A stretch of DNA of 64,000 nt, from positions 1 through 64,000 of the forward strand of contig PHCI01000009.1 in assembly GCA_002842205.1 (NCBI GenBank), given 5' to 3'. The translations under genes were made by a program, and so were the position numbers. This document shows positions 44,954-63,339 of the stretch, one piece after another. The stretch is from Betaproteobacteria bacterium HGW-Betaproteobacteria-3 (GTDB lineage Bacteria > Pseudomonadota > Gammaproteobacteria > Burkholderiales > Burkholderiaceae_C). Under the pieces are notes generated by a model. It was not told where the DNA came from. It did not search any database and was given only the letters and a program-made list of their open reading frames with translations. Numbering within the stretch: position 1 is the first letter of the stretch; every line of letters begins with the position of its first letter.

Positions 44954-45622
44954 TCACACGGGCAGCATGCCTTTGTGTTGAATAAACGACACCACGTCGG
45001 CCACCCCCGTGTGGGTCTTGAGGTTGGTCATGACGTAGGGCTTGACGCCGGTCGGACTGCGTCGCATGCGCCGGGTGTCGGCCTCCATCACGCCCAGGTC
45101 GGCCCCCACGTACGGGGCGAGATCGGTCTTGTTGATCACGAACAGGTCGCTCTTGGTGATGCCGGGGCCGCCCTTGCGCGGAATTTTTTCACCTGCGGCC
45201 ACGTCGATCACGTAAATGGTGAGGTCGCTGAGTTCGGGGCTGAAGGTGGCGGCCAGGTTGTCGCCGCCGCTCTCGACAAACACCACGTCGGCGTTGGGGA
45301 ACTGCACCAGCATGCGGTCGATGGCCTCAAGGTTGATGGAGGCGTCCTCGCGGATGGCGGTGTGCGGGCATCCCCCTGTTTCCACGCCCATGATGCGTTC
45401 GGCCGCCAGCGCGCCACTCACGGTGAGCAGGCGCTGGTCCTCCTTGGTGTAGATGTCGTTGGTGATGGCGACCAGGTCGTATTGGTCGCGCATCGCCTTG
45501 CACAGCATTTCGAGCAGCGTGGTCTTCCCCGAGCCGACCGGGCCGCCGATGCCCACGCGCAGCGGTGGCAGTTTTTTGGTACGGTTCGCGATGTGGTGCA
45601 GTGGGGTCATGGTCGTGCTCAT
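44954..45622 (-). CDS. ureG: urease accessory GTPase UreG
   Basis: UreG is the GTPase that drives nickel delivery into urease. From the ATG at 45622 the product has 222 residues: P-loop GPVGSGKT (27-34), [12 protein letters not shown], the nickel-related CPH motif in [15 protein letters not shown] and [13 protein letters not shown] as the guanine-specificity region. The longer frame from 45775 adds a Pro/Arg-rich stretch with no family match. It is the last gene of the operon, 70 bases after ureF. Confidence 0.95.
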
Positions 45623-45692
45623 GGTGAGGGTCTTGGGCGGGGCTTCGACGGGCGCAACCCGAACGGATGGGGTATTCAGGGGGCGGGGCAAC

Positions 45693-46391
45693 TCAGGAGC
45701 GGAACAGGCGTGAGTACTGCGTCTCGTGCTGGGCCGACAGGATGGCCAGCATGGGCGAAAAAACCTGTCGTTCACTGTCTATCAGGCTCGTCGCGTGGTC
45801 CACTGCCGCGGGAATTTCGTCGGCCAGCCGCGCCAGGATGCGCTGGCCCGAGTTCTGGCCCAGCGGCACCGACTTGAGCGCCGCCTGCACCATGTTCTCG
45901 GCCCAGCCGAAGGCGAAGGCCAATGCGCAATCACGCACGCAGGCCTGGGTGCGCGACGCTGCGAGCGCGAAGGCGATGGGGTAGGTCGGGTCCATCTGTG
46001 CAAGGGCGTCCAGACCGGGCAGGCCTTCCGTGCCGGCCTGGTTGCGCAGCCAGTCCACCAGCGAGCGGCCCATCTGTTCGGTCTGCAGGCGCAGTTCGCT
46101 GCTCTCGCGCGTCGTCAGCACCCAGGTGTTGAGCTCGGCCACATGCGCCAGATCGCCGCGCCGCCAGGCCGGGATGGCCTTGGCCAGCACCGCCAGGTCA
46201 CCGCGTGCGAGCGTGAGGTGCAACTGGTCGGTCAACCAGTCGGACGCCGCCGCCTCGGTGGTCACGCCCGCATGGTCCACCGCGCTCTCCAGCCCTTCGG
46301 AATACGAGAAGCCGCCGATGGGCAGGGCCGGCGAGGCGAGCCAGATGAGTTGCAGCAGGCTGGATGCGGGCAGGCCCGTCGGCGCACGCAT
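45693..46391 (-). CDS. ureF: urease accessory protein UreF
   Basis: UreF joins UreD(H) and UreG in the activation complex. The 232-residue product (starting MRAPTGLP, whose ATG overlaps the ureE stop as ATGA) contains [20 protein letters not shown], the UreF hallmark, and the helical body ending [17 protein letters not shown], a typical C-terminus. The alternative TTG two codons upstream is less likely. Confidence 0.94.
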
Positions 46392-46984
46392 CAGCAATGG
46401 GGCTGGCCGAGCGGCCCAAGGATCGGGCCGAGCTGTGGGCCGTCGCCGTGAGGGTGGTCGTGGTCATGAGCGCGCGCGTGGTCATCGTGTTCATGTGCGT
46501 GATCGTGCCCATGGCCATGGGCATGACTGCCGGTCGCGTAGGCCCCGCCCTCGGGTTCGAAGGTTTCGTCCACCGCGTGCACGATCAGGTGCATCGCCCG
46601 CAGCATGTCGGCCAGCACGTGGTCGGGCTCGATCTTGAGGTGGTCAGGTTTCAGCTCGATGGGCACATGCCGGTTGCCCAGGTGGTAGGCCGCCCGCGTC
46701 AGGTCAAACGGCGTGCCGTGCGCGTTGCAATGCGTGATGCGCAACACCGGTTGTGGCGCCGCGACGACGCGGATCAGCGATCCGTCCTGCGCCACGAGCA
46801 CGTCGCCGCCGCGCACGGCCGTCCCACGTGGCAAAAACACGCCCAACGCCCGACCCTGCGAATCCGTGGCGTCGAAGCGGCTTTTCTGGCGCACGTCCCA
46901 GTCCAGCTCGATGGTGGCGGCACGCTTGAGCAGGACCGAAGCGAGGCCGTGACCCTGGGGCAGCAGTTTGGAAATTTGAAGCAT
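46391..46984 (-). CDS. ureE: urease accessory nickel chaperone UreE
   Basis: UreE stores and donates nickel. The 197-residue product has the UreE N-terminal domain ([40 protein letters not shown]), the metal-binding segment [13 protein letters not shown], and a His/Asp-rich C-terminal tail (about 150-185) with 12 histidines, similar in kind to the Klebsiella UreE tail, which binds several nickel ions. It is coupled to ureF. Confidence 0.95.
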
Positions 46985-47050
46985 GGCGATGGCAGTGGGT
47001 TCGGTAGCAGGTGGGCATTGTGTGCCAAGCGGTCGATTCGGGGGGGCTGT

Positions 47051-47530
47051 TCAAAGCGCCCGCGTGAGGTACCGGCTGTTTGGGTCCAGCCCGTAGCTGC
47101 CAAACGGCGCACACGGCGCAAACCCGTGCGCAAGGTACAGGCGGTAGGCCGGTTCAAAGAAAGGTTGGCTGCCGGTTTCCAGACTCAAACGCGTAAAACC
47201 CATGGCGTGGGCCTGGTCGAGCAGGTGCTGCAGCAGTTGCGTGGCCACGCCCTGGCCACGGAAGCGGGCGGCGGTGCGCATGGACTTCAATTCGGCATGC
47301 TGATCGTCGAGCCGCTTGAGTGCGCCGGTGCCCACCAGGGTCTCGCCCGCCTCGGTGGCCCTCCAGACCGACCAGAACCGCACTGATGGGTGGCGTAGCT
47401 GGCCGAGATCGAGCGCGTGCACGCTCTCGGGCGGCGACGTAGCCCGCATGTCCTGCAGGTGCTCGGCCAGAAAGTCGGCGAGGCGCGGGTCGCTCAGGTC
47501 GTCCAGGCGGATCTGCAGGGCGGGGACCAT
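47051..47530 (-). CDS. GNAT family N-acetyltransferase
   Basis: The 159-residue product has the acetyl-CoA-binding motif A region ELKSMRTAARFRGQGVATQL (about 79-98; RGQGVA is the pyrophosphate loop) and RLSLETGSQPFFEPAYRLYL, with YLAHGFAPCAPFGSY near the end, typical of small PhnO-like acetyltransferases. It is inserted between ureC (4 bases away) and ureE, so it is translated with the urease operon. The substrate is unknown. Confidence 0.88.
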   Translation of the reverse strand: MVPALQIRLDDLSDPRLADFLAEHLQDMRATSPPESVHALDLGQLRHPSVRFWSVWRATEAGETLVGTGALKRLDDQHAELKSMRTAARFRGQGVATQLLQHLLDQAHAMGFTRLSLETGSQPFFEPAYRLYLAHGFAPCAPFGSYGLDPNSRYLTRAL

Positions 47531-47534
47531 GGCT

Positions 47535-49325
<1,791 letters not shown>

Positions 49326-49338
49326 GTTGCGTGCTTTC

Positions 49339-49370
49339 CGTTCGTCCTGAGCCTGTCGAAGGGCTTGAGC
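49339..49370 (+). repeat. GAGCCTGTCGAAGGGC dispersed repeat, between ureB and ureC
   Basis: TTCGTCCTGAGCCTGTCGAA followed by GGGC is a widespread dispersed proteobacterial repeat whose translation often gives FVLSLSKG. Here it occupies the ureB-ureC gap. A related copy lies inside the urtC start region. Confidence 0.7.
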
Positions 49371-49401
49371 GTGATCACTGTCATGGTGCCGTCACAGTCG
49401 G

Positions 49402-49707
49402 TCATAGCTTGCCCTGCACCAGACCGCGAAAGCCGTACACGACCCGGTCTCCGGCGTAATCCACCAGTTCCACCGTGCGCTGCTGGCCCGGCTCGAACCG
49501 CACGGCGGTGCCCGACGCGATGTTCAGCCGCATGCCGCGCGCGGCGGCGCGGTCGAAGTCGAGCGCGCCGTTGGTCTCGGCAAAGTGGTAGTGCGAGCCG
49601 ACCTGGATCGGCCGGTCGGCCGTGTTGCGGATCACCAGCGTGAGCGCACGCCGGCCGGTGTTGAGCGGGTGGTCGCCCGCGTCGGTGAACAGCTCGCCGG
49701 GGGTCAT
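49402..49707 (-). CDS. ureB: urease beta subunit UreB
   Basis: Structural subunit of urease. The 101-residue product starts [20 protein letters not shown], has [20 protein letters not shown] and ends [13 protein letters not shown], matching UreB throughout. The ATG at 49707 is just 7 bases after the small upstream gene; the longer frame from 49833 overlaps that gene and does not match the family. Confidence 0.96.
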
Positions 49708-49936: not shown

Positions 49937-50239
49937 TCAAACAATGGGCTGGTGGACGGTGACCAGCTTGGTGCCGTCGGGAAAGGTGGCCTCGACCTGG
50001 ATGTCGGGAATCATCTCGGCGATGCCGTCCATCACGTCGGCACGGGTGAGCACGCTGCGGCCCTCGCTCATCAGCGCGGCCACGGTCTTGCCGTCGCGCG
50101 CGCCCTCCATGACGGCGGCTGAAATCAGGGCCACGGCCTCGGGGTAATTGAGTCGGAGGCCCCGCGCCTTGCGGCGCTCGGCCAGCAGTGCGGCCGTGAA
50201 GATCAGGAGCTTGTCTTTCTCGCGGGGGGTCAGTTCCAT
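49937..50239 (-). CDS. ureA: urease gamma subunit UreA
   Basis: Structural subunit of urease. The 100-residue product starts [20 protein letters not shown], has [20 protein letters not shown] and [14 protein letters not shown] and ends [20 protein letters not shown], a full match in length. The ATG at 50239 is the family start; longer frames are spurious. It is the first urease gene, preceded by a candidate sigma-54 promoter. No ureD precedes it: the next gene upstream is the divergent permease-kinase fusion. Confidence 0.97.
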
Positions 50240-50282
50240 GGGCGTCGTTTTGTCAGTCGTGGCGGGGAGTTCGCCATTGTGT

Positions 50283-50298
50283 TGCAAGGGCCGTGCCG
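50283..50298 (-). promoter_or_regulatory. candidate sigma-54 promoter for the urease operon
   Basis: Read toward ureA: CGGCACGGCCCTTGCA, matching the -24/-12 consensus TGGCACG-N4-TTGCA at all but one base, with GG and GC exactly 10 bases apart. It ends 44 bases before the ureA ATG. Nitrogen-regulated urease genes are often NtrC/sigma-54 dependent, which fits. Confidence 0.6.
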
Positions 50299-50302
50299 TG
50301 TC

Positions 50303-50320
50303 ATACGCCAATTGGCCCAT
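50303..50320. promoter_or_regulatory. degenerate operator shared with urtA
   Basis: ATACGCC-AATT-GGCCCAT has the same left half-site and spacing as the perfect palindrome upstream of urtA (ATACGCC-ACCT-GGCGTAT). It lies just upstream of the ureA sigma-54 candidate and 31 bases before the proposed fusion start, so it could serve both directions. Its presence argues against the longer fusion start at 50279. Confidence 0.5.
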
Positions 50321-50350
50321 GGACAGGCACGGAAACTGCACCGTGGGGCT

Positions 50351-53300
50351 GTGAGTCAAACCATTCCCATCCTTCCGGCCGACGCGCCCCAGCGTGTGGT
50401 GAAGGTCCGGCGCGACTACAACAGCTGGGTGGCCAGCGAGACGATGGAAGATTACGCGCTGCGTTTCACGCCGCAGCGTTTTCGCAAATGGTCCGAGTGG
50501 CGGGTGGCCAACACCGCCTTCGGCGCGGCGTCGTTCCTGATCCTGGAGGCGGTGGGCGCCACGCTGCTGGTGCAATACGGTTTCATCAATGCCTTTTGGG
50601 CCATCCTCGCCACCGGTGTCATCATCTTTCTGGCAGGCTTGCCCATCAGCGTGTACGCCGCCCGCTACGGGGTGGACATGGACCTGCTCACGCGCGGCGC
50701 GGGCTTTGGCTACATCGGCTCCACGCTCACGTCGCTCATCTACGCGTCGTTCACCTTCGTCTTCTTCGCGCTGGAGGCGGCCGTCATGGCCTATGCGCTG
50801 GAGCTGGCGCTGGGCATTCCACCGAGCTGGGGCTACCTGATCTGCGCGCTGGTGGTGATTCCGCTGGTCACGCACGGTGTTTCCGCCATCAGCCGCCTGC
50901 AGGTGTGGACGCAGCCGCTCTGGCTGTTCATGCTCGTGGTGCCGTTTGTCTATGTGTTCATGCATGACCCTGGTGCGTTTTCAGGTGTGACGCACTATGG
51001 CGGTGAAAAAGGGCTGGGTTCGCAGTTCAATATGCACTATTTCGGTGCGGCATTGACGGTGGGCATCGCACTGATCACGCAGATGGGCGAGCAGGCCGAC
51101 TACCTTCGGTTCATGCCCGTGCAGACCGCGGCCAACCGCAAGCGCTGGTGGTTCGGCGTGCTGGCCGGCGGGCCGGGCTGGGTGGTGCTGGGCGTGGTCA
51201 AAATGCTGGGGGGCGCACTGCTGGCCTACCTGGCCATCACCCACATGGTGCCGGTGGACCGCGCGGTCGACCCCAACCAGATGTACCTGGCCGCGTATGA
51301 ATACGTGTTCCCCAACTACGGCTGGGCGGTGGCGGCCACGGCGCTGTTCGTGGTGGTGTCGCAGCTCAAGATCAACGTGACCAACGCCTACGCTGGCTCG
51401 CTGGCGTGGTCGAACTTTTTCTCGCGGCTCACGCACAGCCACCCCGGGCGGGTGGTGTGGGTGGTGTTCAACACGCTGATCGCCTTCATGCTGATGGAGA
51501 TGAACGTGTTCGACGCGCTGGGCAGCGTGCTTGGGCTGTATTCGAACATCGCCATTGCGTGGATCATGGCCGTGGTGGCCGACCTGGTGGTCAACAAGCC
51601 GCTGGGCCTGTCGCCCAAGGGCATCGAGTTCAAGCGCGCCTACCTGTACGACATCAACCCGGTGGGCGTGGGCGCCATGGCGCTGGCGTCGGTGCTGTCG
51701 ATCACCGCGCACCTGGGCGGGTTCGGGCCGGGGCCTCAGGCGTTCTCGGCCGTGATCGCCATGACCACGGCGTTCCTGGCCGCGCCGCTGATCGCCTGGG
51801 CGACGCGCGGCAAGTACTACATCGCGCGCGAGGGTGACGGCCACCACGCCCGCCACGCAGTGTTCTCGCTGCCCCCTGAGGGAGCCGCCGAAGCGCAGGG
51901 CGTCTACAAGGCGTACACGCTCCAGACCTGCGTGATCTGCGAGCGTGCCTACGAGGGCCCCGACATGGCGCACTGCCCCGCGTACCAGGGCCCGATCTGC
52001 TCGCTGTGCTGCACGCTGGACGCCCGCTGCGGTGACCTGTGCAAGCCGCACGCGAGCCTGTCGTTCCAGTGGTCGTCCACCCTGCGCTGGCTGCTGCCGC
52101 GACGCGTCTGGCCGTACCTGGACACGGGCCTGGGCCACTTCATCCTGCTGATGCTGGTGGTGGTGCCGCTGCTGGCCACGGTGTTCGGCCTGTTGTATCA
52201 CCGTGAGCTGGGCACCCTGGCGCACATGGTGTCCAGCGCCGAGATGCTGGCGGCGCCCGAGGCGGCGTTGCGCTCCGGATTCGTCAAGGCCTACATGGCG
52301 CTGCTGCTGATCGCGGGCATCGTGGCATGGTGGTTGGTGCTGGCGCACAAGAGCCGTCAGGTGGCGCAGGAAGAATCCAACCGCCAGACCCACCTGCTGC
52401 ACGAACAGACGCTGGCCCTGCGGCACGAGGTCGAATCCCACCGCCGTACCGACGAGGCGCTGCAAAACGCCAAGTTGCTGGCCGAGCAGGCCATGCGGCA
52501 GGCCGAACAGGCCAACCAGGCCAAGAGCCGCTACATCAGCGCCGTCAGCCACGAGTTGCGCACGCCGCTCAACAGCATCCTCGGTTATGCGCAGTTGATG
52601 GGCGAGGACGCGGGCGTGCCCGCGCACCGTCGGCAGGCGGTCAATGTGATCCGGCGCGGGGGCGAACACTTGCTGTCACTGATCGAGGGCACGCTGGACA
52701 TTGCGCGCATCGAGGCCGGCAAACTCACGCTCAACGTGAAGCCCATGCGCTTTGCCGACTGCGTGCACGAGATGGCCAGCATGTTCGAGTTGCAGGCTGC
52801 AGCCAAGGGACTGCGCTTTCGTTTTGAGCCGCAGGGCACGATCCCCGAGGTGGTGCGTGCCGACGAGCAGCGGGTGCGCCAGATTCTCATCAATCTGCTG
52901 GGCAACGCCATCAAGTTCACCGCGGTGGGCCAGGTGACGCTTCGCGTGCGTTACGCCCGCGAACTGGCGTGGCTGGACGTCGAAGACACCGGTCCCGGCC
53001 TCGACGCGGGCGAAATCGAACGCATTTTCGAGCCGTTCGCCCGGGGCGCCAGCGCGGCCAGCGCTGCACCGGGCGCGGGCCTGGGCCTCACCATTGCCAA
53101 GATGCTCACCGCGCTGATGGGCGGCGAGATGAGTGTGTCCAGTGCGCCAGGGAGCGGCTCGGTCTTTCACGTCAAGCTGTTCCTGCCCGAGGTGCACCAG
53201 ACCACCCGGCACCCTGCCCGGGTTGCACCGGCACGCGCGCCGCCGTCCCGTGGCGCCTATGCGGGAGAACGGCGACGTGTGCTGGTGGTGGACAACGAGG

Positions 53301-53926
53301 AGGCAGACCGCGAATTGCTCGTCACGGTCCTCACGCCGCTGGGGTTTGCGTTGCGCCAGGCCTCCAGCGGGCATGACTGTCTGGACCTGTTGGCCGCGGG
53401 CTACCGGCCGCACGCCATCCTGATGGATCTGGCGATGCCCGGCATCGACGGCTGGGAGACCCTGCGCCGCGTGCGCGAACTCGCGGCCGCGGGCGCAGCC
53501 CCCAGCGATGTGCAATTGGCCGTGGTGTCGGCCAATGCGTTTGACAAAGGCTTGGACAACGACGTCGGCATTGGTGCCGAGGATTTCATCCTCAAGCCCG
53601 TGCGCCACGCCGAGTTGCTGGACTGGCTGGAGCGTCGGCTCGAACTGGTGTGGATCGACCCCGCCGCGCCGCCACGCGCCGCCTCGGCGATGGGGGCTGC
53701 GCCGGACGTGCGAATCTTTCCGACCGCATCGGCGCTGCAGGCGCTGGCCCAGGCGGCACAGTTGGGCTATTACCGCGGCCTCATGAACACCCTGGACGAA
53801 ATTGGCCAGGCGCAGCCGCAGTGCGAGGCCTTCGTCGCCGAAGTGCGCGAACTGGCGCGCCAGTTCCAGTTTGACGCCATCGCCAAAATTCTCCAGCAGG
53901 CCCCACGTGAACCCCAACCCAATTGA
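50351..53926 (+). CDS. NCS1 permease-histidine kinase-receiver fusion
   Basis: A protein of about 1191 residues (GTG start at 50351; a GTG at 50279 is possible). Residues about 30-500 form a twelve-helix NCS1 (cytosine/purine/allantoin-type) permease, with [20 protein letters not shown] and [19 protein letters not shown] linker (507-517, [11 protein letters not shown]) resembles an intergenic palindrome. Then come eight cysteines at 527, 530, 542, 550, 553, 554, 560 and 564, likely a metal site, two more membrane helices (about 593-670), a coiled coil, HisKA with His734 ([10 protein letters not shown]), HATPase ([21 protein letters not shown]) and a receiver with Asp1026 (ILMDLAMPG). All kinase motifs are intact. 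It may sense a substrate during binding or transport, as SLC5-kinase fusions such as CbrA do. Divergent from ureA; overlaps the next regulator gene. Confidence 0.88.
51869..51900 (+). repeat. in-frame copy of a GC palindrome in the fusion linker
   Basis: CTGCCCCCTGAGGGAGCCGC followed by CGAAGCGCAGGG closely resembles, in reverse complement, the intergenic palindrome at 63251-63285 (CCCCCTTGAGGGGGAGGCGC, then CGAAGGCGC). It encodes [10 protein letters not shown] between the permease and the cysteine cluster. Confidence 0.45.
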
Positions 53927-54878
53927 AGTCACCCTCGACCGCGCCAGCAGCGAGATCGTGCTGATCGTTGACGATGTGCCCGACAACCTGGCCGTGCTGC
54001 ATGACGCGCTGGACGAATCGGGATACACCGTGCTGGTGGCCACCCACGGCGAGGCGGCGCTGCAGCGGGCCACGCAGGCGTTGCCCGACATCGTTCTGCT
54101 CGACGCGATGATGCCCGGCATGGACGGTTTTGAAGTGGCCAAGCGCCTCAAGGCCATGCCGCAGACGGCCCACATCCCGATCATTTTCATGACCGGCCTG
54201 ACCGACACCGAGTACCTCGTGGCCGCGCTGGAAGCCGGCGGCGTGGACTACGTCACCAAGCCGATCAAGCCCAAGGAAGTGCTGGCGCGCATGGGCGTGC
54301 ACATGCAGGGCGCGCGCGAAAAGCGCCAGGCGCGCAATGCACTGGACGCGTTTGGCTACGCCAGCATCACCGTGCGCGCCAGTGACGGGCGGTTGATGTG
54401 GCAGACGGCGCTGGCGCGTGAACTGTTGGCGGCGTATTTTGGGGGTGTCTCGCCCTTTGCGCCTGAGGTCATGCTCGACTGGCTTCGCCGCCAATTGCCC
54501 TTGGCCCCCAACGCCGAGCCGCCACGCCTGTCGATCGAGCGGGGCGCGCGACGCCTGACGCTGCGCTTGCACCCGCAGACGGGCGCCGAAGACGAAGGGG
54601 GGGATTGGCTGATCGTGATGCGCGAGGTGTCCGACGCCAAAATCATCGAAACCATGAGTCTGGCGTTCAAGCTCACGGCACGGGAGGCCGAGGTGCTGTA
54701 CTGGGTGGTCAAGGGCAAGATCAACCGCGACATTGGTGACATCCTGGGCGCCAGCCCGGCCACCGTCAAAAAGCACCTGGAGCACATCTTTGCCAAGCTC
54801 GGCGTGGAAACGCGGACTTCTGCGGCGGCGATGGCGACCAACCGCATTCGCCAGTCGCATCCGGCGTTCGAAGCCTGA
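53907..54878 (+). CDS. response regulator with LuxR-type DNA-binding domain
   Basis: The 323-residue product from the GTG at 53907 has a receiver (about 16-135) with Asp22-Asp23 and phosphoacceptor Asp66 (IVLLDAMMPGMDG), conserved Thr (FMTGLTD) and Lys (VTKPIKP), a middle region (about 145-240) without a recognised fold, and a C-terminal LuxR helix-turn-helix (about 255-315, KLTAREAEVLYWVVKGKINR, then DIGDILGASPATVKKHLEHI). Its start lies inside the end of the fusion kinase gene (20-base overlap), so the two are coupled and it is the obvious phosphotransfer partner. It is the best candidate for binding the ATACGCC palindromes. Confidence 0.92.
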   Translation: MNPNPIEVTLDRASSEIVLIVDDVPDNLAVLHDALDESGYTVLVATHGEAALQRATQALPDIVLLDAMMPGMDGFEVAKRLKAMPQTAHIPIIFMTGLTDTEYLVAALEAGGVDYVTKPIKPKEVLARMGVHMQGAREKRQARNALDAFGYASITVRASDGRLMWQTALARELLAAYFGGVSPFAPEVMLDWLRRQLPLAPNAEPPRLSIERGARRLTLRLHPQTGAEDEGGDWLIVMREVSDAKIIETMSLAFKLTAREAEVLYWVVKGKINRDIGDILGASPATVKKHLEHIFAKLGVETRTSAAAMATNRIRQSHPAFEA

Positions 54879-54939: not shown

Positions 54940-55027
54940 AGTCATTGAGTGTGCCCCGTCGCGTGCGATTCGGGGGGTGGCGGCGTCGGGTTGCCGCGCG
55001 CCTGCGCGGGCCGGTATCCTTTGGGCC

Positions 55028-56746
55028 ATGTACGCCCAATTCTTCGGCCTGAAGCAGGACCCGTTCTCGATCGCGCCCGATCCGCGGTACCTGTTCATGA
55101 GCGAGCGGCATCGCGAGGCACTGGCCCATTTGCTGTACGGGCTGGGCAGTGGTGGCGGCTTTGTGCTGCTGAGCGGGGCGATCGGCACCGGCAAGACCAC
55201 GGTCTGCCGCTGCTTTCTGGAGCAGGTCCCCGCCAACTGCAATGTGGCCTACATCTTCAATCCCAAGCTCACGGTGCACGAATTGCTGCAGTCGGTGTGC
55301 GATGAGTTTGGCATTGAACGCGCGAACCGGGGCCCGGGCCCGGCCACGGTCAAGGGCTACATCGACCCGTTGAACGCTTTCCTGTTGCAAGCCCACGCGG
55401 CGGGTCAGCACAACGTGTTGATCATCGACGAAGCCCAGAACCTTTCGGCCGCCGTGCTGGAACAGCTTCGCCTGCTGACCAATCTGGAGACCAATGAGCG
55501 CAAGTTGCTGCAGATCATCCTGATCGGCCAGCCGGAGTTGCGGCGCATGCTGGCGCGGCCCGAACTGGAGCAAGTGGCCCAGCGCGTGATCGCGCGCTAT
55601 CACCTGCGTGCGCTCACCGAAGAGGAAACCCTGCAATACATCCCGCATCGCATGGCCGTGGCCGGTGTGACCACGGCCCGGCCGTTCGACCGCCGCGCGA
55701 TGAAACGCATCCATGCCCTCTGCGGAGGCGTCCCGCGCCGCATCAACCTGCTGTGTGACCGTGCACTGCTCGGGGCTTATGCCGGTGGGCAGACCGTGGT
55801 GACGCGCGCCATCGTGGACAAGGCGGCAGACGAAGTGTTTGACCAGGAGGCCGTGTCGGGGCCTTACAGTCGCGTGCGCATTGCGGTGGCGGCCACCGTG
55901 GCGGCAGTGCTGGTGGCGGGCGGGGCGCTGCTGGTGGCGGAACGTGTCGGCTGGAGCAACGGGTGGAGCCTGTTGCGCAGTGCGGTGCGCGTCGGCGCGA
56001 CCGCCGATCCGGTGCCGGCCAGCGGCGCCAGCACGGCCGTGTCCGTGCCCGTGCCGTCCGGTGGCGAAGCCGCCCGCGCATCTCCGCCTGCGCCCGAGGC
56101 GCCCATTGCACTGCACTCCGCTGCGCAAATCTCGATGCCTCCTGCAGCGGGCCCGGCGGATCCGGTCCGGCCGGTCGAAGGCGGCGTCGCGACGCTGATC
56201 GCCGCCGAGGACGACGCCTGGCGGGAACTGGCCCGGGTCTGGTCGCTGACGCTGGGGGCCGGCGACCCCTGCGAAGCCGCGCGTCGCCAGGGGGTGAACT
56301 GTTTCAAACGCAAGGATGCCAGCCTCGCGATGATTCGCCTGCTGGACCGGCCCGGTGTGCTGCTGTTGCGCGACGACGCGGGCAAAAATGGTTATGCCGT
56401 TCTGACGCGGCTGGACGAACAGGCGGCCACACTGCGCACCGCCAGTGGCACCGCCACTGTAGCGCTGGAGGTGTTGGGCCAGCTCTGGCGCGGTGACTTC
56501 GCCACGCTTTGGCGCGGGCCCGAGCCGGCCGGTCGGCGGGGCCTGGTGCAACAATTGTCTGCCCTGCCGGGCGCACAGGGTTTCTCGCCGAACCGCCCGG
56601 TGGACGACGCAACGCTCAAGGCGCGGGTGCACGCGTTTCAGGTGAAGCAAGGCCTGGTGCCCGACGGGCTGGCCGGCCCGATCACGCAAATGCAGCTCAA
56701 TCGCGCGACCGGGGTGCCCGAGCCCCGACTCGAAACCGAAAGATAA
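55028..56746 (+). CDS. gspA: ExeA/GspA-like AAA ATPase with peptidoglycan-binding tail
   Basis: ExeA with ExeB helps the type II secretin assemble through peptidoglycan. The 572-residue product starts MYAQFFGLKQDPFSIAPDPR, has P-loop GAIGTGKT (50-57), Walker B VLIIDEAQNLS (about 132-142), a membrane helix near 282-300, a Pro/Ala-rich periplasmic stretch and a C-terminal peptidoglycan-binding domain (about 525-565, KARVHAFQVKQGLVPDGLAG). The ATG at 55028 is the family start. gspB follows 4 bases later. No other type II secretion genes are in the window. Confidence 0.9.
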   Translation: MYAQFFGLKQDPFSIAPDPRYLFMSERHREALAHLLYGLGSGGGFVLLSGAIGTGKTTVCRCFLEQVPANCNVAYIFNPKLTVHELLQSVCDEFGIERANRGPGPATVKGYIDPLNAFLLQAHAAGQHNVLIIDEAQNLSAAVLEQLRLLTNLETNERKLLQIILIGQPELRRMLARPELEQVAQRVIARYHLRALTEEETLQYIPHRMAVAGVTTARPFDRRAMKRIHALCGGVPRRINLLCDRALLGAYAGGQTVVTRAIVDKAADEVFDQEAVSGPYSRVRIAVAATVAAVLVAGGALLVAERVGWSNGWSLLRSAVRVGATADPVPASGASTAVSVPVPSGGEAARASPPAPEAPIALHSAAQISMPPAAGPADPVRPVEGGVATLIAAEDDAWRELARVWSLTLGAGDPCEAARRQGVNCFKRKDASLAMIRLLDRPGVLLLRDDAGKNGYAVLTRLDEQAATLRTASGTATVALEVLGQLWRGDFATLWRGPEPAGRRGLVQQLSALPGAQGFSPNRPVDDATLKARVHAFQVKQGLVPDGLAGPITQMQLNRATGVPEPRLETER

Positions 56747-56750
56747 GGCC

Positions 56751-57557
56751 ATGTCCTACATCCTCGACGCCCTGCGACGTGCCGACTCGGAGCGCGAGCG
56801 CGGCGCGGTGCCTGGCTTGCGGGCCCAGCCCGTGCCACCCTCCGCTGCGCCTGACGCAGCGCGCGCCCATGGGCGTTGGTGGCGTGGACTGGCGGGGGTG
56901 CTGGTGGCGGTGCTGGGGGTTGTCGCGGTCGGCGGCGCCGTGTGGTGGGCGAGGTCCGACCGCTCATCGTCGGCGGCCAAGGCCCCGGGCCACAGTGTTC
57001 CCGCGGCGACCGGAACGCTACAAGGCCCGACGTCGCCTCCTCATGAACCGGCGCCGGACAGCGCACCGATGCCACCCGCGACCCCCGCCGAAGCGGCGGC
57101 GCCGGTGATTGTGCTGGCGCTTCCCAATGCCGCGGTTGCACCGGTAGCGCCTGTGCCCGCTGTGCCTGCTGTCGCCGCGGTACCGGAGCGTCGGCCGGTG
57201 TCGGGCGCTGCCCAGCGCAATGCCACGGGTGAGCGGTCAGCCGCCGCACCCGACCGCAGCCCGGCCGGTCGCACCGCCCCTGATGCGGCAACGCGCGCGC
57301 CGACCGTGGCGCCGGGTACGGCCGGCGACCGGATTCTTTCCCTGGCAGAGTTGCCCGACGATGTGCGGCGCACCTTGCCGGCGCTCGCGGTCAGCGGGGC
57401 CACCTATTCTGAAACCCCGGCCCACCGCATGGTGATCATCAATGGCCAGGTGGTCCGCGAAGGCGAGGAGCCCGCGCCCGGCGTGGTGCTGGAGCGGATT
57501 CAGCTCAAGTCCGCCATCCTGCGCTACAGAGGGTTGCGCTACAGCGTTCCTTACTGA
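56751..57557 (+). CDS. gspB: GspB/ExeB-like general secretion protein
   Basis: The 268-residue product starts MSYILDALRRADSERERGAV, the standard GspB N-terminus, has a membrane helix (about 43-65), a long Ala/Pro-rich periplasmic linker and the conserved C-terminal GspB domain (about 205-268, with AHRMVIINGQVVREGEEPAP and ILRYRGLRYSVPY). It pairs with the preceding ATPase. DctQ-like gene follows after 12 bases, so the TRAP genes may be co-transcribed although functionally unrelated. Confidence 0.9.
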   Translation: MSYILDALRRADSERERGAVPGLRAQPVPPSAAPDAARAHGRWWRGLAGVLVAVLGVVAVGGAVWWARSDRSSSAAKAPGHSVPAATGTLQGPTSPPHEPAPDSAPMPPATPAEAAAPVIVLALPNAAVAPVAPVPAVPAVAAVPERRPVSGAAQRNATGERSAAAPDRSPAGRTAPDAATRAPTVAPGTAGDRILSLAELPDDVRRTLPALAVSGATYSETPAHRMVIINGQVVREGEEPAPGVVLERIQLKSAILRYRGLRYSVPY

Positions 57558-57569
57558 CGACAGCGCCCC

Positions 57570-58157
57570 ATGCCCGCATGGCTGATTCTTTCGCGCTGGA
57601 TTGACACGCTCAACCGCAAGATCGGGCGCGCCATGGTGTGGCCGGTCCTGGGGGCCATCCTGGTCAGTGCGGGCAACGCCCTCTCGCGCAAGTTTTTCGG
57701 GGTCAGCTCCAACGCCTGGATCGAATTGCAGTGGCACCTGTTTGCGGTTTCGTACCTGGGTTGTGCGGGCTATGTGCTGCTGGTCAACGAGCATGTGCGG
57801 GTGGACGTGCTGTCCAGCCGCTGGTCGGCGCGCACCCGTGCCTGGGTCGACATCGCGGTGATGGCAGGCTTTGCGCTGCCCATGACGGGGTTGGTGGGGG
57901 CCATGTCGGCCGAATTGTTCCTGCGCCGGTTTGCCACGGGTGAAATCTCTTTCAATGCCGGGGGGCTGCCGGTCTGGCCCATCGTTCTGGCCATGCCGGT
58001 GGGCATGGCCTTGCTGGGCCTGCAATGTGTGAGCGAGATCATCCGCCGCTGGGCTTTTCTGAAGGGCTGGACGCAGACCCCCGTGCTGTGCGAAGCCGAT
58101 CTGCCGCCTCTTTTCGCGACACCGCCAGCCAGCGCATCGCAAGGCGGCCGCCCGTGA
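57570..58157 (+). CDS. TRAP transporter small permease (DctQ)
   Basis: The 195-residue product has four transmembrane helices, the typical DctQ topology (ILSRWIDTLNRKIGRAMVWP first; FNAGGLPVWPIVLAMPVGMA near the last), with WIELQWHLFAVSYLGCAGYV, and fits the mannitol/chloroaromatic-type subfamily. It partners the large permease, which starts inside its stop (TGATG). No DctP-type binding protein gene is adjacent, which is unusual for a complete TRAP system. Confidence 0.88.
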   Translation: MPAWLILSRWIDTLNRKIGRAMVWPVLGAILVSAGNALSRKFFGVSSNAWIELQWHLFAVSYLGCAGYVLLVNEHVRVDVLSSRWSARTRAWVDIAVMAGFALPMTGLVGAMSAELFLRRFATGEISFNAGGLPVWPIVLAMPVGMALLGLQCVSEIIRRWAFLKGWTQTPVLCEADLPPLFATPPASASQGGRP

Positions 58158-59914
58158 TGGCATGGTTGGGGGCCAACCTGGCGCCGGTGATGTTCACCGC
58201 GCTGGCGTTGATGCTGGTCAGCGGCGTGCCCGTGGTGTTTGGGTTGGCCGCCTGCGGCCTGGGATTTGCGGCGCTGGGCGTCGCGCTGGACCTGATGCCG
58301 CCCGCGCTGATGCAGGCGCTTCCGCTGCGGGTGTTTGGCATCATGTCCAGCGAGCTGCTGCTGGCGATCCCGTTTTTCACCTTCATGGGCCTGGTGCTGG
58401 ACAAGTCCCACCTGGCCGAAGACCTGCTCGAGACCGTGGCCGACGTGTTCGGCCCGATGCGCGGTGGGCTGGCGCTGGCCGTGGTGCTGGTCGGGGCGTT
58501 GCTGGCCGCCACCACCGGTGTGGTCGCGGCGGCGGTCATCTCCATGGGGCTGATCTCCCTGCCGGCGATGCTGCGTCATGGCTACAGTCCGCGCCTGGCG
58601 GCGGGCGTGATTGCCGCCTCCGGCAGTCTCACGCAGATCGTGCCGCCCTCGCTGGCGCTGATTGTGGTGGCGGACCAACTGGGCCGGGGGGTCGGCGAAA
58701 TGTATTCGGCGGCCTTGCTGCCAGCGGCCATCATCATCGGTGCCTACGTGTTGCTGTTGCTGTGCATCAGCGTGGTCAAGCCGCAATGGATGCCGGCGAC
58801 CCCGGGCCAGGTTTCTGGTGCTTCGGCGGACCGACCCTCCCGCGGTTACCGGTCGCTGGCGTGGCTGGCGCTGGTGAGCGCCGTTGGCAGTTGGGTCTTC
58901 ATGCAACAGTATCCGGCACTGCTGCACCGCATGGGCCGCGACATCGCCCCACCACCGCCGGATGAACGGGTGATCGTCGGCCTGGCGGTGGCCATTGCGG
59001 TTGGTTTTGGCGTCGCCTGCATCGACCGGTGGCTGCGCCTGGGGTGGTTGTCGCGCATGACGCAGCGCGTGGCGTTTGTGCTGATTCCCCCGCTGGTCCT
59101 GATTTTTCTGGTGTTGGGCACGATCTACCTGGGGGTGGCCACCCCGACCGAAGGCGGTGCGCTTGGCGCCGTGGGGGCGTGGCTGTTTGCGACGCTGCGC
59201 CGACGCCTCACGCTGCAGGGCTTTTTCGACGCGCTGTTGCAGACGGCCAAGCTCAGCTGCTTCGTGCTGTTCATCCTGATTGGCTCGACGATCTTCAGCC
59301 ACACCTTCAATGCGGTCGACGGCGGGGTGTGGGTGGCCCAGCTGTTCGCCCATGTGCCGGGCGGGGTGACCGGCTTCCTGCTCGTGGTCACGGCATTGAC
59401 CTTCCTGCTGGGCCTGTTTCTAGATTTTTTCGAGATTGCATTTGTGCTGATTCCGCTGCTCAGTCCGGTGGCCACGGCGCTGGGCATTGACCTGGTCTGG
59501 TTTGGCGTGCTCATTGCGATCAACCTGCAGGCCTCGTTTTTGACGCCACCGTTTGGCTATGCGCTGTTCTTTCTGCGCAATGTGGCACCGCGCGAACCGC
59601 ACCATGATGCGGTGAGCGGAAACATCCTGCCACCCGTCACCACCACGGACATTTACCTTGGCGCATTGCCGTTCGTGGGGGTCCAGCTGTTGGTGATGGT
59701 GGCGATCATCGTGTGGCCGTCGCTGATCCGGCTGGACATCGGCCGCGTGCCCGCACTGGACGACGCCACCGTCCTGCGGGTGCTCGACCGTTTTGGCCGT
59801 GACGATGTGCCCTACACGCCGGACCAGGCGCCGCCCGACCCCCTGCAATGGCTGAAGGACGATCTGCGCCAACGCCCGGTGCCGCCGCCCAGTGCAACGC
59901 CACTGCCCCGGTGA
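58157..59914 (+). CDS. TRAP transporter large permease (DctM), enlarged
   Basis: The 585-residue product has many membrane helices (at least 12) and DctM signatures: PFFTFMGLVLDKSHLAEDLL, ATTGVVAAAVISMGLISLPA and TQIVPPSLALIVVADQLGRG, with TPTEGGALGAVGAWLF in the second half. Standard DctM has about 425 residues; the extra length lies mainly in about 215-300 (a hydrophilic loop and two additional helices) and in the C-terminal 60 residues, as in the mannitol/chloroaromatic subfamily. The start overlaps dctQ. The substrate is unknown; placement before urtA may suggest a nitrogenous or organic-acid substrate, but that is guesswork. Confidence 0.88.
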   Translation: MAWLGANLAPVMFTALALMLVSGVPVVFGLAACGLGFAALGVALDLMPPALMQALPLRVFGIMSSELLLAIPFFTFMGLVLDKSHLAEDLLETVADVFGPMRGGLALAVVLVGALLAATTGVVAAAVISMGLISLPAMLRHGYSPRLAAGVIAASGSLTQIVPPSLALIVVADQLGRGVGEMYSAALLPAAIIIGAYVLLLLCISVVKPQWMPATPGQVSGASADRPSRGYRSLAWLALVSAVGSWVFMQQYPALLHRMGRDIAPPPPDERVIVGLAVAIAVGFGVACIDRWLRLGWLSRMTQRVAFVLIPPLVLIFLVLGTIYLGVATPTEGGALGAVGAWLFATLRRRLTLQGFFDALLQTAKLSCFVLFILIGSTIFSHTFNAVDGGVWVAQLFAHVPGGVTGFLLVVTALTFLLGLFLDFFEIAFVLIPLLSPVATALGIDLVWFGVLIAINLQASFLTPPFGYALFFLRNVAPREPHHDAVSGNILPPVTTTDIYLGALPFVGVQLLVMVAIIVWPSLIRLDIGRVPALDDATVLRVLDRFGRDDVPYTPDQAPPDPLQWLKDDLRQRPVPPPSATPLPR

Positions 59915-60031: not shown

Positions 60032-60049
60032 ATACGCCACCTGGCGTAT
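60032..60049. promoter_or_regulatory. perfect palindromic operator upstream of urtA
   Basis: ATACGCC-ACCT-GGCGTAT is a perfect 7+7 inverted repeat, 103 bases before urtA. A degenerate version with the same half-site and spacing lies in the ureA/fusion region. The two-fold symmetry suits a LuxR-type dimer such as the regulator at 53907. No strong sigma-54 site was found here. Confidence 0.6.
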
Positions 60050-60152
60050 TTCACGCGTCGCCGCCATTGCCTAGCATCCCTCCAACGCTGTCCCCAAGCC
60101 TTCGTGGCCAAGGTGCAGCGGGTTTCAACCTCAACCCCCTGGAGAGAAGTCC

Positions 60153-61412
60153 ATGCAACGTCGATTCACACTCAAGGCACTGACCGCTGCCATCGCGCTG
60201 GCCGGCTTTTCTGGTCTGTCTGCGCAGGCCGCAGACACGATCAAGGTGGGCGTGCTCCACAGCCTGTCGGGCACCATGGCCATTTCCGAAACCGTGTTGA
60301 AAGACACCGTGCTGATGGCGATCGACGAGATCAACGCTGCGGGCGGCGTCATGGGCAAGCAGCTCGAACCCGTGGTGGTGGACCCGGCGTCCAACTGGCC
60401 GCTGTTCGCCGAGAAGGCCAGGCAACTGCTCACGCAGGACAAGGTGTCGGTGGTGTTTGGCTGCTGGACCAGCGTGTCGCGCAAGTCGGTGCTGCCGGTG
60501 TTTGAAGAGCTCAATGGCCTGCTGTTCTACCCGGTACAGTACGAGGGCGAAGAGCTGTCCAAGAACGTCTTCTACACCGGTGCCGCGCCCAACCAGCAGG
60601 CCATTCCCGCGGTGGACTACCTGATGAGCAAGGACGGCGGCGCAGCCAAGCGCTGGGTGCTGCTGGGCACCGATTACGTGTATCCGCGCACCACCAACAA
60701 GATCCTGCGCGCCTACCTGAAAGCCAAGGGCGTGAAGGAATCGGACATCGACGAAAAGTACACCCCGTTCGGCCATTCCGACTACCAGACCATCGTGGCC
60801 GACATCAAGAAGTTCTCGGCCGGTGGCAAGACCGCCGTCGTGTCCACCATCAACGGGGACTCCAACGTCCCGTTCTACAAGGAGCTGGGCAATGCCGGCC
60901 TGAAGGCCAAGGACGTGCCGGTGGTCGCGTTCAGCGTGGGCGAGGAAGAACTGCGCGGCGTGGACACCAAGCCGCTGGTCGGTCACCTGGCGGCGTGGAA
61001 CTACTTCCAGTCGATCAAGAATCCGACCAACGATGCGTTCATCAAGAAGTGGTCGGCCTATGCCAAGGCCAAGAAGCTGCCGGGCGCCGACAAGCCCCTG
61101 ACCAACGACCCGATGGAAGCCACCTACATCGGCATCCACATGTGGAAGCAGGCCGTCGAGAAAGCCAAGTCCACCGACACCGACAAGGTCATCGCCGCCA
61201 TGGCGGGCCAGACTTTCAAGGCGCCCTCGGGCATCGTCAGCAAGATGGACGAAAAGAACCACCACCTGCACAAGAGCGTGTTCATTGGCGAGATCAAGGC
61301 CGACGGCCAGTTCAACGTGGTCTGGAAGACGCCCGGCCCGGTCAAGGCCAAGCCCTGGAGCCCGTACATCGAGGGCAATGACAAGAAGCCCGACGAACCC
61401 GCGAAGAAATAA
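60153..61412 (+). CDS. urtA: urea ABC transporter substrate-binding protein UrtA
   Basis: UrtA is the periplasmic urea-binding protein of a high-affinity ABC importer. The 419-residue product has a signal peptide (MQRRFTLKALTAAIALAGFS; the RRFTLK stretch resembles a twin-arginine motif) cleaved near SAQAAD, then IKVGVLHSLSGTMAISETVL, SVVFGCWTSVSRKSVLPVFE and NGLLFYPVQYEGEE, all strongly UrtA-like. GGAGAGAA precedes the ATG. GC-rich palindromes in the 246-base gap to urtB could lower permease expression relative to UrtA. Confidence 0.96.
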   Translation: MQRRFTLKALTAAIALAGFSGLSAQAADTIKVGVLHSLSGTMAISETVLKDTVLMAIDEINAAGGVMGKQLEPVVVDPASNWPLFAEKARQLLTQDKVSVVFGCWTSVSRKSVLPVFEELNGLLFYPVQYEGEELSKNVFYTGAAPNQQAIPAVDYLMSKDGGAAKRWVLLGTDYVYPRTTNKILRAYLKAKGVKESDIDEKYTPFGHSDYQTIVADIKKFSAGGKTAVVSTINGDSNVPFYKELGNAGLKAKDVPVVAFSVGEEELRGVDTKPLVGHLAAWNYFQSIKNPTNDAFIKKWSAYAKAKKLPGADKPLTNDPMEATYIGIHMWKQAVEKAKSTDTDKVIAAMAGQTFKAPSGIVSKMDEKNHHLHKSVFIGEIKADGQFNVVWKTPGPVKAKPWSPYIEGNDKKPDEPAKK

Positions 61413-61415
61413 GAC

Positions 61416-61470
61416 GCCCCCGAAGCGGCCCTCTGGGCCGCCTCCCCCCAATGGGGGGGGCGGCGCGGCC
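61416..61470. repeat. GC-rich palindromes between urtA and urtB
   Basis: GCGGCCC-TCT-GGGCCGC (61425-61441) and a C6/AAT/G8 hairpin next to it form two strong stems 13 bases after urtA. The sequence is of the same intergenic type as 63251-63285. It has no T-tract, so it may stabilise the urtA message or cause partial termination. Confidence 0.6.
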
Positions 61471-61658
61471 GCTTGAGGCGGCTCGGCGCAGCGCGCCCCC
61501 GTCAAGACATCTCGCGACGCTTCTTCCGTTTTTCGCACGCCTCGCGGGGGCGGCGCGGCCCTGGTTTGGCTGCTTCGGTGCCGGACGGGGCTCAGGCGCC
61601 GTCCGCGGCACGGTGCTTGCATGGTGAGTCGCGGGTCTGCTCACCCTACAGGTTCTTC

Positions 61659-63233
61659 ATGTTGTTTCGCAGTTTCATTCTCTTTCTTGCTTTCCTGATC
61701 GGCCCGGGTGCGTACGCACTCACGCCTGCCGAGGCGCTGGCCATGGCGGCGGGGGAGACGGACCCACGCATCGAGGCGCTGAACAACGCGGTGGCGGTGG
61801 CCGACGACAGGACGGCGGCGTTCATCCAGGCGCTGTCCGACGATGCGGTGAAGGTGGCGGGCGACAAGGTGTTCGTGGTGCGCGACGGGCAGGGCACCGA
61901 CCCGGTCACTGGCGCCGGGGTCGCTGTGCCGGACGACGCCGAGGACGTCATCAACAACAACCGCCTGCGCGGTGAGCTCGACACCGCGCTGGCGGCCATC
62001 AAGCTGTTTTCCAAAGACGACAAGGTGCGCCGCGCCGCCATCAGGACACTGCAGGGCGAATCCGACGAAGCCAGACTGCCGCTGATCGACAAGGCCATTG
62101 CAGCCGAAACGCTGCCCGTGCTCCGGTCGGACCTTGAGCTGGTGCGCGCGTCGATCCTGATCCACAGCCCGGACAAGGCCAAGCGGCTGGACGCGGCAAC
62201 GTTGCTGGGCAGCAGTAAGGCGCCGAGCGCCAAAACGGTGATGCTTGAGCGGCTGAAGACTGAGGACGACGCCGGGGTCAGGGCCGCATTGGCCGAATCG
62301 CTGAAAAAAGTCGAAGCTTCTCTGGCCTGGGGCGACAAGATCAATGCGCTGTTCTCCGGCATCAGCCTGGGGTCCATCCTGCTGCTGGTCGCGTTGGGCC
62401 TGGCGATCACCTACGGCCTGATGGGCGTGATCAACATGGCGCACGGCGAGCTCATGATGATCGGTGCCTACGCCACCTATGGGGTGCAGGGGCTGTTCCA
62501 GAAATTCCTGCCGGACCTGTTCGACGGGTACTTGCTGGCTGCGGTGCCGGTTGCTTTTCTGGCTTCGGCCCTGATGGGCGCGGCCCTGGAGCGCAGCGTG
62601 ATCCGCTTCCTGTACGGGCGGCCGCTCGAGACGCTGCTCGCCACCTGGGGCATCAGCCTGATGTTGCAGCAACTGGTGCGCAGCATTTTTGGCGCGCAGA
62701 ACGTGGGCGTTGAAAACCCGAGCTGGATGAGCGGCGGCGTGCAATTCTTCGGCAACGTGCAGCTGCCGTGGAACCGCATCGTCATCATCGCCTTTGCGGC
62801 TGCCGTGCTGCTGGCCATGGCGTGGTTGATCGGCAAGACACGGCTGGGGCTGTTTGTGCGCGGCGTGACGCAAAACCGGCCGATTGCGTCGTGCATGGGC
62901 GTCAATACCGCGCGCATCGACACCTATGCGTTCGCGCTGGGTTCGGGCATTGCCGGTCTGGCCGGTTGTGCGCTCAGCCAGGTGGGCAACGTGGGGCCGG
63001 ATCTGGGGCAGGGCTATATCGTCGATGCGTTCATGGTCGTGGTGCTGGGCGGGGTGGGCCAACTCGCCGGCACGGTCTATGCCGCGCTGGGCCTTGGCGT
63101 GCTCAACAAGCTGCTGGAGGGCTGGACCGGCGCTGTGCTGGCCAAGATTGCCGTGCTCGTGTTCATCATCATCTTCATCCAGAAGCGGCCGCAGGGCATC
63201 TTCGCGATGAAGGGAAGATCGGCGGAAGCATGA
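61659..63233 (+). CDS. urtB: urea ABC transporter permease UrtB
   Basis: UrtB is one of two permeases of the urea importer. The 524-residue product has a signal peptide (MLFRSFILFLAFLIGPGAYA), an N-terminal soluble region (about 22-215) with HEAT-like helical repeats, and a LivH-type permease domain (about 230-520) with about eight membrane helices, including ITYGLMGVINMAHGELMMIG and EASxxxG-like ABC contact GVNTARIDTYAFALGSGIAG. The long N-terminal region is normal for UrtB. The ATG at 61659 is preferred to frames from 61473. Confidence 0.95.
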   Translation: MLFRSFILFLAFLIGPGAYALTPAEALAMAAGETDPRIEALNNAVAVADDRTAAFIQALSDDAVKVAGDKVFVVRDGQGTDPVTGAGVAVPDDAEDVINNNRLRGELDTALAAIKLFSKDDKVRRAAIRTLQGESDEARLPLIDKAIAAETLPVLRSDLELVRASILIHSPDKAKRLDAATLLGSSKAPSAKTVMLERLKTEDDAGVRAALAESLKKVEASLAWGDKINALFSGISLGSILLLVALGLAITYGLMGVINMAHGELMMIGAYATYGVQGLFQKFLPDLFDGYLLAAVPVAFLASALMGAALERSVIRFLYGRPLETLLATWGISLMLQQLVRSIFGAQNVGVENPSWMSGGVQFFGNVQLPWNRIVIIAFAAAVLLAMAWLIGKTRLGLFVRGVTQNRPIASCMGVNTARIDTYAFALGSGIAGLAGCALSQVGNVGPDLGQGYIVDAFMVVVLGGVGQLAGTVYAALGLGVLNKLLEGWTGAVLAKIAVLVFIIIFIQKRPQGIFAMKGRSAEA

Positions 63234-63250
63234 GAACTTCCCACCCCCGA

Positions 63251-63285
63251 TGCGCCTTCGGCGCCTCCCCCTCAAGGGGGCGCAA
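63251..63285. repeat. GC-rich palindrome between urtB and urtC
   Basis: GCGCC-TTC-GGCGC followed by CCCCC-TCAA-GGGGG forms two adjacent stems in the 106-base gap between urtB and urtC. It belongs to the same family as the urtA-urtB element and the coding copy at 51869-51900. Confidence 0.6.
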
Positions 63286-63339
63286 CCGGTGGCCTGGCGG
63301 AGCCGGCTCCACGGGCGCCCTGGAAAGGGGAGTCCGTTC

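Follow-up and report, generated by a model that had tools for sequence, protein, structure and literature searches.

A permease–histidine kinase fusion with a predicted NCS1 fold as a candidate urea or short-amide receptor linked to urease and urea-uptake genes

We analysed a 64,000 nt stretch of Betaproteobacteria bacterium HGW-Betaproteobacteria-3 (contig PHCI01000009.1, positions 1–64,000; hereafter the window), in which one gene joins a permease of predicted NCS1 type to a hybrid histidine kinase, beside a LuxR-type response regulator gene and urease genes. We read the fusion as an NCS1-type receptor kinase for urea or a related amide whose LuxR-type partner controls the urea-uptake (urt) and urease (ure) genes, and assign this reading a probability of about 0.75. 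It is carried by comparison of sequences and structural models, which bears on the fusion itself, the fold of its permease, its linkage to urea and amide genes, a recurring palindrome and the covariation of that palindrome with the regulator. We also lean, with less assurance, towards a broader proposal: that these proteins form an undescribed, widespread receptor class, in which an NCS1 fold with a zinc-hub tail serves as a direct urea or short-amide receptor and duplicated lineages carry a co-evolving regulator–operator code for each operon.

The fusion gene

The open reading frame at 50279–53926 (+) encodes a single protein with a long membrane N-terminus followed by kinase modules. Its start codon is likely the GTG at 50351, about where homologues begin, so that the gene would span 50351–53926; residue numbers used here (protein P0001) are counted from the codon at 50360. 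Pfam matches over cut-off identified HisKA (52520–52720, +; E 2.9e-17), HATPase_c (52862–53185, +; E 4.4e-25) and the kinase's own receiver (Response_reg; 53279–53626, +; E 8.5e-16), and the SHELRTP motif, N box, G boxes and receiver Asp and Lys were all intact, as in a hybrid histidine kinase. A tail of about 100 residues beyond the receiver (53627–53923) had no family match. A first-pass annotation, made from the sequence by itself, had described one frame comprising a permease, eight cysteines within 38 residues, two further helices, a complete HisKA/HATPase pair with all motifs intact and a receiver, and the reading frame, Pfam matches, motif inspection and structural model bore this out. 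The fusion is a genuine gene: a sequencing join was considered as its origin and rejected, because permease–kinase fusions recur across other genomes.

Distribution and gene neighbourhoods of related fusions

The sensor gene is divergent from ureA (urease gamma; 49937–50239, −) and lies upstream of urtABC on the same strand, as the first-pass annotation had stated, though about 5 kb and four other genes separate it from the latter. Whether homologous fusions are scattered or tied to such genes had been posed as the deciding question for a role in urea metabolism. In a set of 398 genomes that sampled the phylum evenly rather than randomly, a permease profile matched 51, counting the window's own, at 57 places. 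One of these is the window, 55 are further fusion loci and the last is a distant stand-alone permease; neighbourhoods were taken for all 56 places other than the window. The fusions proved firmly linked, with ureA/ureC, urtA, fmdA or an amidase gene nearby at 53 of the 55 loci (urtA 44, fmdA 37, ureA 11), whilst none of 40 control stretches of the same genomes, at offsets fixed before viewing, carried these genes. The two loci lacking markers (L139 and L173) stop at contig ends. Among the 80 named loci nearest the window, many of them incomplete at their ends, 79 carried both permease and kinase, 57 ureA, 29 urtA and 65 any marker.

A quick tree of 86 rows, for which one in four of the named loci was used, placed the window among 15 urease-linked rows (support 99), a group nested within a 28-row urease/urt group (support 99). 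Outside the latter stood the formamidase-linked copies, along with five urease-labelled and six urt-labelled rows. Five genomes carried two close copies: four (G435, G556, G414 and G352) have one paralogue linked to urease and another linked to formamidase, each copy adjoining its own genes, and in the fifth (G288) both copies lie with formamidase. Three relatives lack the receiver (L162:8368–11049, L170:8386–11082 and L027:9803–12541; 894–913 aa), having HisKA and HATPase with the same permease and cysteine cluster; a formamidase gene is close to the first two, and the third belongs to an unannotated record.

Beyond these sets, a single-sequence query run on 200 genomes of the order matched 38, in a few of which the match is a distant NCS1 protein only, and the permease part matched 541 plasmid records out of 72,556, with Klebsiella accounting for 342; eight plasmid matches were examined at locus level. 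Klebsiella plasmid pGN4539-1 (IncFIB/IncFII, typed conjugative) bears a fusion divergent from urtABCDE and formamidase genes (L025:7897–17369), and this fusion carries HisKA, HATPase and receiver. Stand-alone relatives were also seen. One from Klebsiella pneumoniae (NZ_CP129771.1; L024:8941–10548, 45 % identity), annotated as a cytosine permease and ending in a four-cysteine remnant, directly follows ureG in a urease cluster that IS4321 interrupts in this record, and is a candidate NCS1 urea permease. On Methylovirgula plasmid pHY1 an eight-cysteine permease (L028:16673–18322) adjoins a fusion gene, an arrangement that suggests a transporter–receptor pair.

The permease domain

The model indicates that the permease part has the NCS1 fold, though its sequence is hardly recognisable. 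Of the Pfam families for which the first-pass annotation had proposed a search, HisKA, HATPase_c and Response_reg were recovered and Transp_cyt_pur was not, the permease part having no Pfam match even at E 10. The NCBIfam cytosine-permease model matched it at E 5e-6, below cut-off. Transp_cyt_pur (PF02133) was matched by one of 20 aligned members (1.4e-9) and, over cut-off, by the stand-alone relatives L024 and L174; the source genome contained no PF02133 match at E 0.001. Sequence searches of the PDB yielded no usable match to the permease part, and profile comparison with CodB aligned 150 columns only, at 52 % probability.

The fold search settled what sequence and profile searches could not, and the NCS1 assignment follows from it. 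An AlphaFold2 model of 720 residues (mean predicted local distance difference test score, pLDDT, 82.8; predicted template-modelling score 0.81) was compared using VIA-align. Its best fit was CodB (7qoa; Z 35.8, root-mean-square deviation 3.2, 397 residues aligned, 17 % identity), followed by Mhp1 (Z 29.0–26.8), with remaining LeuT-fold families at 24.1 or below; SLC5 members fell well short of CodB (CHT1 Z 23.0, DUR3 Z 22.5), and the domain is not assigned to that family. The structural alignment set the domain at residues 29–484 (50444–51811, +) and gave identities of 15–17 % with CodB and Mhp1. Twelve helices were counted in the permease part of the model, then two further helices, so the earlier description of a twelve-helix NCS1-type permease held at the level of fold.

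Pocket residues were compared in a MAFFT alignment of the window protein, 25 receiver-type and three receiver-less fusions with Escherichia coli CodB and AllW, taking residue roles in CodB from the literature (PMC9379551). Where CodB has the stacking residue Trp108, 28 of 29 fusions have Phe (Phe135 in window numbering), and 26 of the 29 carry Ile or Val in place of Phe204 (position 239). The aromatic substrate sandwich of NCS1 proteins would thus keep its ring at Phe135 and lose it at Ile/Val239. The sodium-site hydroxyl ligands Thr278/Thr279 align with Ile/Asn, whilst Arg216 of transmembrane helix (TM) 6 and Tyr285 of TM8 are retained. Glu63 in TM1 was invariant in 121/121 labelled fusions (a count that excludes 20 unlabelled alignment rows) and in the three receiver-less relatives, but two stand-alone relatives carry Gln or Phe there. 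Glu139, also invariant, lies about at Mhp1 Gln121, an approximate equivalence that we set by offset. Judged from this low-identity alignment rather than from a ligand-bound structure, the altered pocket might accommodate a small polar ligand more readily than a base.

It is possible, albeit clearly less likely than sensing by ligand binding, that the domain both transports urea or an amide and senses it, with kinase output tracking transport flux. The complete and very conserved permease fold (64 % mean column identity over 20 sequences) would fit this account, as would stand-alone relatives that accompany urease genes (Klebsiella) or adjoin a fusion (Methylovirgula), and the transport of histidine by CbrA (PMC7096432). 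However, urt genes are already present in the cell, and the sodium-site hydroxyls have been replaced, although proton coupling would not require them. Ks-Amt5, moreover, binds ammonium without translocating it (PMC5764959). As Glu63 is fixed in fusions and missing in two stand-alone proteins, the fused proteins may have moved away from a transport function.

The cysteine cluster and linker helices

The permease is followed by eight cysteines in the arrangement C-x2-C-x11-C-x7-C-x2-CC-x5-C-x3-C (residues 524–561, 38 residues; 51929–52042, +). Exactly this spacing was found in 142 of 145 relatives. The three exceptions are L074, a locus at a contig end, L174, a distant NCS1 protein, and the Klebsiella stand-alone permease, which reaches its end after the fourth cysteine. 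The first-pass annotation had placed the cluster as a site intervening between permease and kinase; the eight cysteines stand, but since the stand-alone Methylovirgula permease, which has no kinase, possesses all of them, the cluster belongs to the permease module. Folded alone, this part modelled poorly (pLDDT 68.7), and its best structural matches were RING, PHD and FYVE folds, none of them significant; as a guess from these weak matches, it may hold two zinc ions in a module of that kind. Helices 13 and 14 come next (model helices 581–623 and 627–719; 52100–52516, +), the latter being continuous in the model with the long helix leading to HisKA, and the Pfam scan revealed neither a PAS nor a HAMP domain between permease and kinase.

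Eight cysteines at fixed spacing next to genes for a nickel-dependent urease might instead indicate that the protein senses a metal (e.g. nickel for urease) or redox state through the cluster, the permease being a mere membrane anchor. We consider this improbable: the spacing is identical in formamidase-linked fusions and in the kinase-less stand-alone protein, the permease is highly conserved for an anchor, and the nearest folds, though not significant, are structural zinc modules.

The regulator and a candidate operator

A response regulator gene (53907–54878, +) probably starts at a GTG at 53907, 20 nt inside the kinase frame, in keeping with the earlier observation that it begins within the end of the kinase gene. 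In the Pfam scan its product comprised a receiver and a GerE helix–turn–helix, as in NarL/FixJ-type regulators, and Asp66 and Lys118 were present in 122/122 aligned regulators. Among the 133 receiver-type relatives for which 1 kb or more of downstream sequence was available, 130 (119 + 11) had a homologue directly downstream; of the remaining three, one had a regulator 2.7 kb away and two (L062 and L106) had none.

After removal of redundancy, which kept 34 of 39 formamidase-type and 49 of 66 urease-type regions, the palindrome TACG-N8-CGTA was found within 400 bp upstream of the sensor in 27/34 formamidase-type regions, compared with 10/1920 background fragments. We built a matrix from 31 formamidase-type sites of other genomes only and then applied it elsewhere. 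In the window its best site, ATACGCCACCTGGCGTAT (60032–60049, score 20.9), lies upstream of urtA, both 7-base arms forming a perfect inverted repeat, and its second best, ATACGCCAATTGGCCCAT (50303–50320, score 13.1), lies between ureA and the sensor gene; the third scored 4.3. The site at 50303–50320 had a p value of 0.001 against 3960 background windows of 200 bp. Across the 3.77 Mb genome, 60032–60049 is the only exact match to ATACGYCN4GRCGYAT and 50303–50320 is one of three places with one mismatch; the other two, inside a PAS-kinase frame (C8:83183) and beside argininosuccinate synthase (C18:189229), were taken as chance. A motif from an initial search upstream of urease-type fusions was discarded, as it was ureA coding sequence (codons for DKLLIFT).

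The same matrix found sites scoring at least 10 upstream of urtA in 31 of 38 urease/urt-type loci having that gene, and 47 of 59 sites (1.52 Mb) fell at urtA, ureA or sensor starts; control sequence held 13 sites in 0.8 Mb. Where urtA is distant from the fusion, a site preceded it in 4/4 genomes with a urease-type fusion 40–245 kb away, in 1/16 genomes with formamidase-type fusions only and in 0/20 genomes without a fusion, the latter two sets being the best-scoring urtA matches listed rather than random samples; 12/960 control windows gave the background. Two of the 20 fusion-less genomes (G420 and G520) are from the window's own family. These data make it likely that a predicted operator is present at both window sites, and they support the role in setting urea gene expression that the first-pass annotation had suggested.

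Site bases also followed the recognition helix of the regulator. Where regulator residues 285 and 288 are Ala or Met and Lys, 37 of 42 half-sites carry CC; Arg and Asn go with TC in 39/60 half-sites and with CC in 0/60, and Arg and Asp with CA or CG in 16/18. The window regulator has Ala285 and Lys288, and the window sites carry CC. It appears from this covariation that the regulator reads the operator. The palindrome could conceivably belong to another regulator, the sensor and its partner controlling something else, seeing that operator binding by the LuxR-type protein is a prediction and that urt genes are often subject to general nitrogen control. This is a little more doubtful again than metal sensing, for the site follows the sensor and regulator genes rather than urtA, and its bases covary with the recognition helix.

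Proposed mechanism and evidence against it

We infer that a membrane receptor kinase has recruited an NCS1-type permease, whether or not the latter still transports, to do its sensing. The permease pocket would bind urea or, in the formamidase-linked branch, a short amide. From there the conformational signal would pass through the cysteine cluster in the cytoplasm, which is probably a hinge stapled by zinc, and along helices 13 and 14 to the HisKA dimer. Phosphate would then reach the co-encoded LuxR-type regulator, which would bind the palindrome ATACGCCA-NN-TGGCGTAT at both urtA and the sensor/ureA promoter, thereby activating the genes for urea uptake and hydrolysis.

Urea had been put forward in the first-pass annotation alongside allantoin and pyrimidines; urea, or a short amide, is retained here, whereas the other two fit less well because the aromatic pair is altered and codA/allB-like genes occurred near just 1 of 135 fusion loci (2/40 controls). 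Sensing of a nucleobase, allantoin or hydantoin, with urea genes regulated because those compounds yield urea, accords with the nitrogen heterocycles that characterised bacterial NCS1 proteins mostly carry (PMC13390362) but is the least probable of the alternatives on those same two grounds, the neighbours being urea and short-amide genes.

Several observations weigh against the receptor–regulator mechanism. The sensor/ureA promoter is, by the sites predicted there, much less regular than that of urtA: the strict palindrome occurred upstream of the sensor in 2/49 urease-type and 0/14 urt-type regions, the matrix gave a site at p ≤ 0.01 in 4/35 ureA/sensor regions (35 of the 49 urease-type regions kept once ureA coding sequence had been trimmed away) and 1/14 urt-type regions, and only 11 of 66 ureA loci had a site of at least 10 at the ureA or sensor start. 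Allowing two mismatches, ATACGYCN4GRCGYAT was no commoner in the genome than its reversed control, and the four positive genomes of the distant-urtA comparison all belong to the window's family. As for covariation, a site scoring 12 or more was present in only 70 of the 115 loci scanned, rarer regulator types were mixed (CC in 2/4 half-sites for Arg and His, 3/16 for Arg and Thr), the residues were picked after looking (285 from a screen of the GerE region, 288 by inspection), and the counts are inflated by shared ancestry, for which they are uncorrected. The case for urea or a short amide is indirect, being drawn from neighbouring genes and pocket residues; positions that split urease-linked from formamidase-linked permeases are mostly conservative and were not used as evidence. 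The Pfam scan found no histidine phosphotransfer (HPt) domain in fusion or regulator that might carry phosphate beyond the kinase's receiver, and in the related system CbrA histidine left kinase activity unchanged (PMC7096432).

Neighbouring genes

Further urease genes, ureG, ureF, ureE, ureC and ureB, occupy 44963–49707 (−). On the other side, urtA, urtB and the start of urtC extend over 60126–64000 (+), the first two identified by TIGR03407 and TIGR03409 over cut-off and urtC by tblastn, with starts near 60126–60153, 61473 and 63250, respectively. Between the regulator and urtA are an ATPase gene (XrtA/PEP-CTERM ATPase model) and a GspB-like gene at 54977–57557, each matched below cut-off, followed by genes for the DctQ and DctM subunits of a TRAP transporter (57570–59914) that stop just short of the urtA operator.

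Significance and comparison with known systems

If the proposed mechanism is correct, many Proteobacteria would have a dedicated urea or small-amide sensor, another transporter family would join the few recruited as kinase receptors, and the control of ure, urt and formamidase operons would be explained. What transporter–kinase fusions sense, and what the cysteine hub does, would become testable. In view of the relatives on Klebsiella plasmids, the family may also influence how nitrogen is used there, the one such fusion whose neighbourhood was seen lying with a urea/amide transport and formamidase operon.

No description of an NCS1–kinase fusion was found in the open-licence literature (subscription papers were outside that search), and the first-pass view that this version is little or not described is upheld to that extent. 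A 2026 genome paper on Ectopseudomonas guguanensis G3 names a hybrid histidine kinase and a LuxR regulator as neighbours of a second urtABCDE operon, the part available mentioning no permease domain or function (PMC13296017); likened by description rather than by sequence, this pair probably belongs to the same family. GrtK was considered as a match and rejected as a different protein (PMC12918730, in the part available).

Amongst transporters, the fusion shares the NCS1 fold with CodB, Mhp1, AllW and MetT (for MetT as an NCS1 transporter, PMC13390362), and the TM6 Arg and TM8 Tyr with CodB, but differs from them in its altered substrate and sodium sites and its added cysteine cluster and kinase.

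Amongst receptors, we know of no comparable cysteine cluster in Ks-Amt5. That protein also fuses an uptake-transporter fold, as receptor for a small nitrogen compound, to a histidine kinase, but the fold is Amt/Rh (PMC5764959). The SLC5-STAC kinases CbrA, CrbS/MxtR and RpuS resemble the window fusion in placing a full LeuT-fold transporter N-terminal to the kinase and in having nutrient-specific regulons, and CrbS/MxtR are likewise hybrid kinases with a receiver (PMC7918813, PMC7096432, PMC13022988, PMC5715377, PMC9100948). In contrast to these, the window fusion has an NCS1 rather than an SLC5 domain and is linked to urea/amide operons, it lacks a PAS domain in the Pfam scan, and in its model the cysteine cluster and two extra long helices appear where those kinases have the STAC four-helix bundle; no STAC domain was found in that scan, the presence of a STAC model in the library being unverified. 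In sum, the fusion extends the transporter–kinase fusions exemplified by CbrA, CrbS and Ks-Amt5 to the NCS1 fold.

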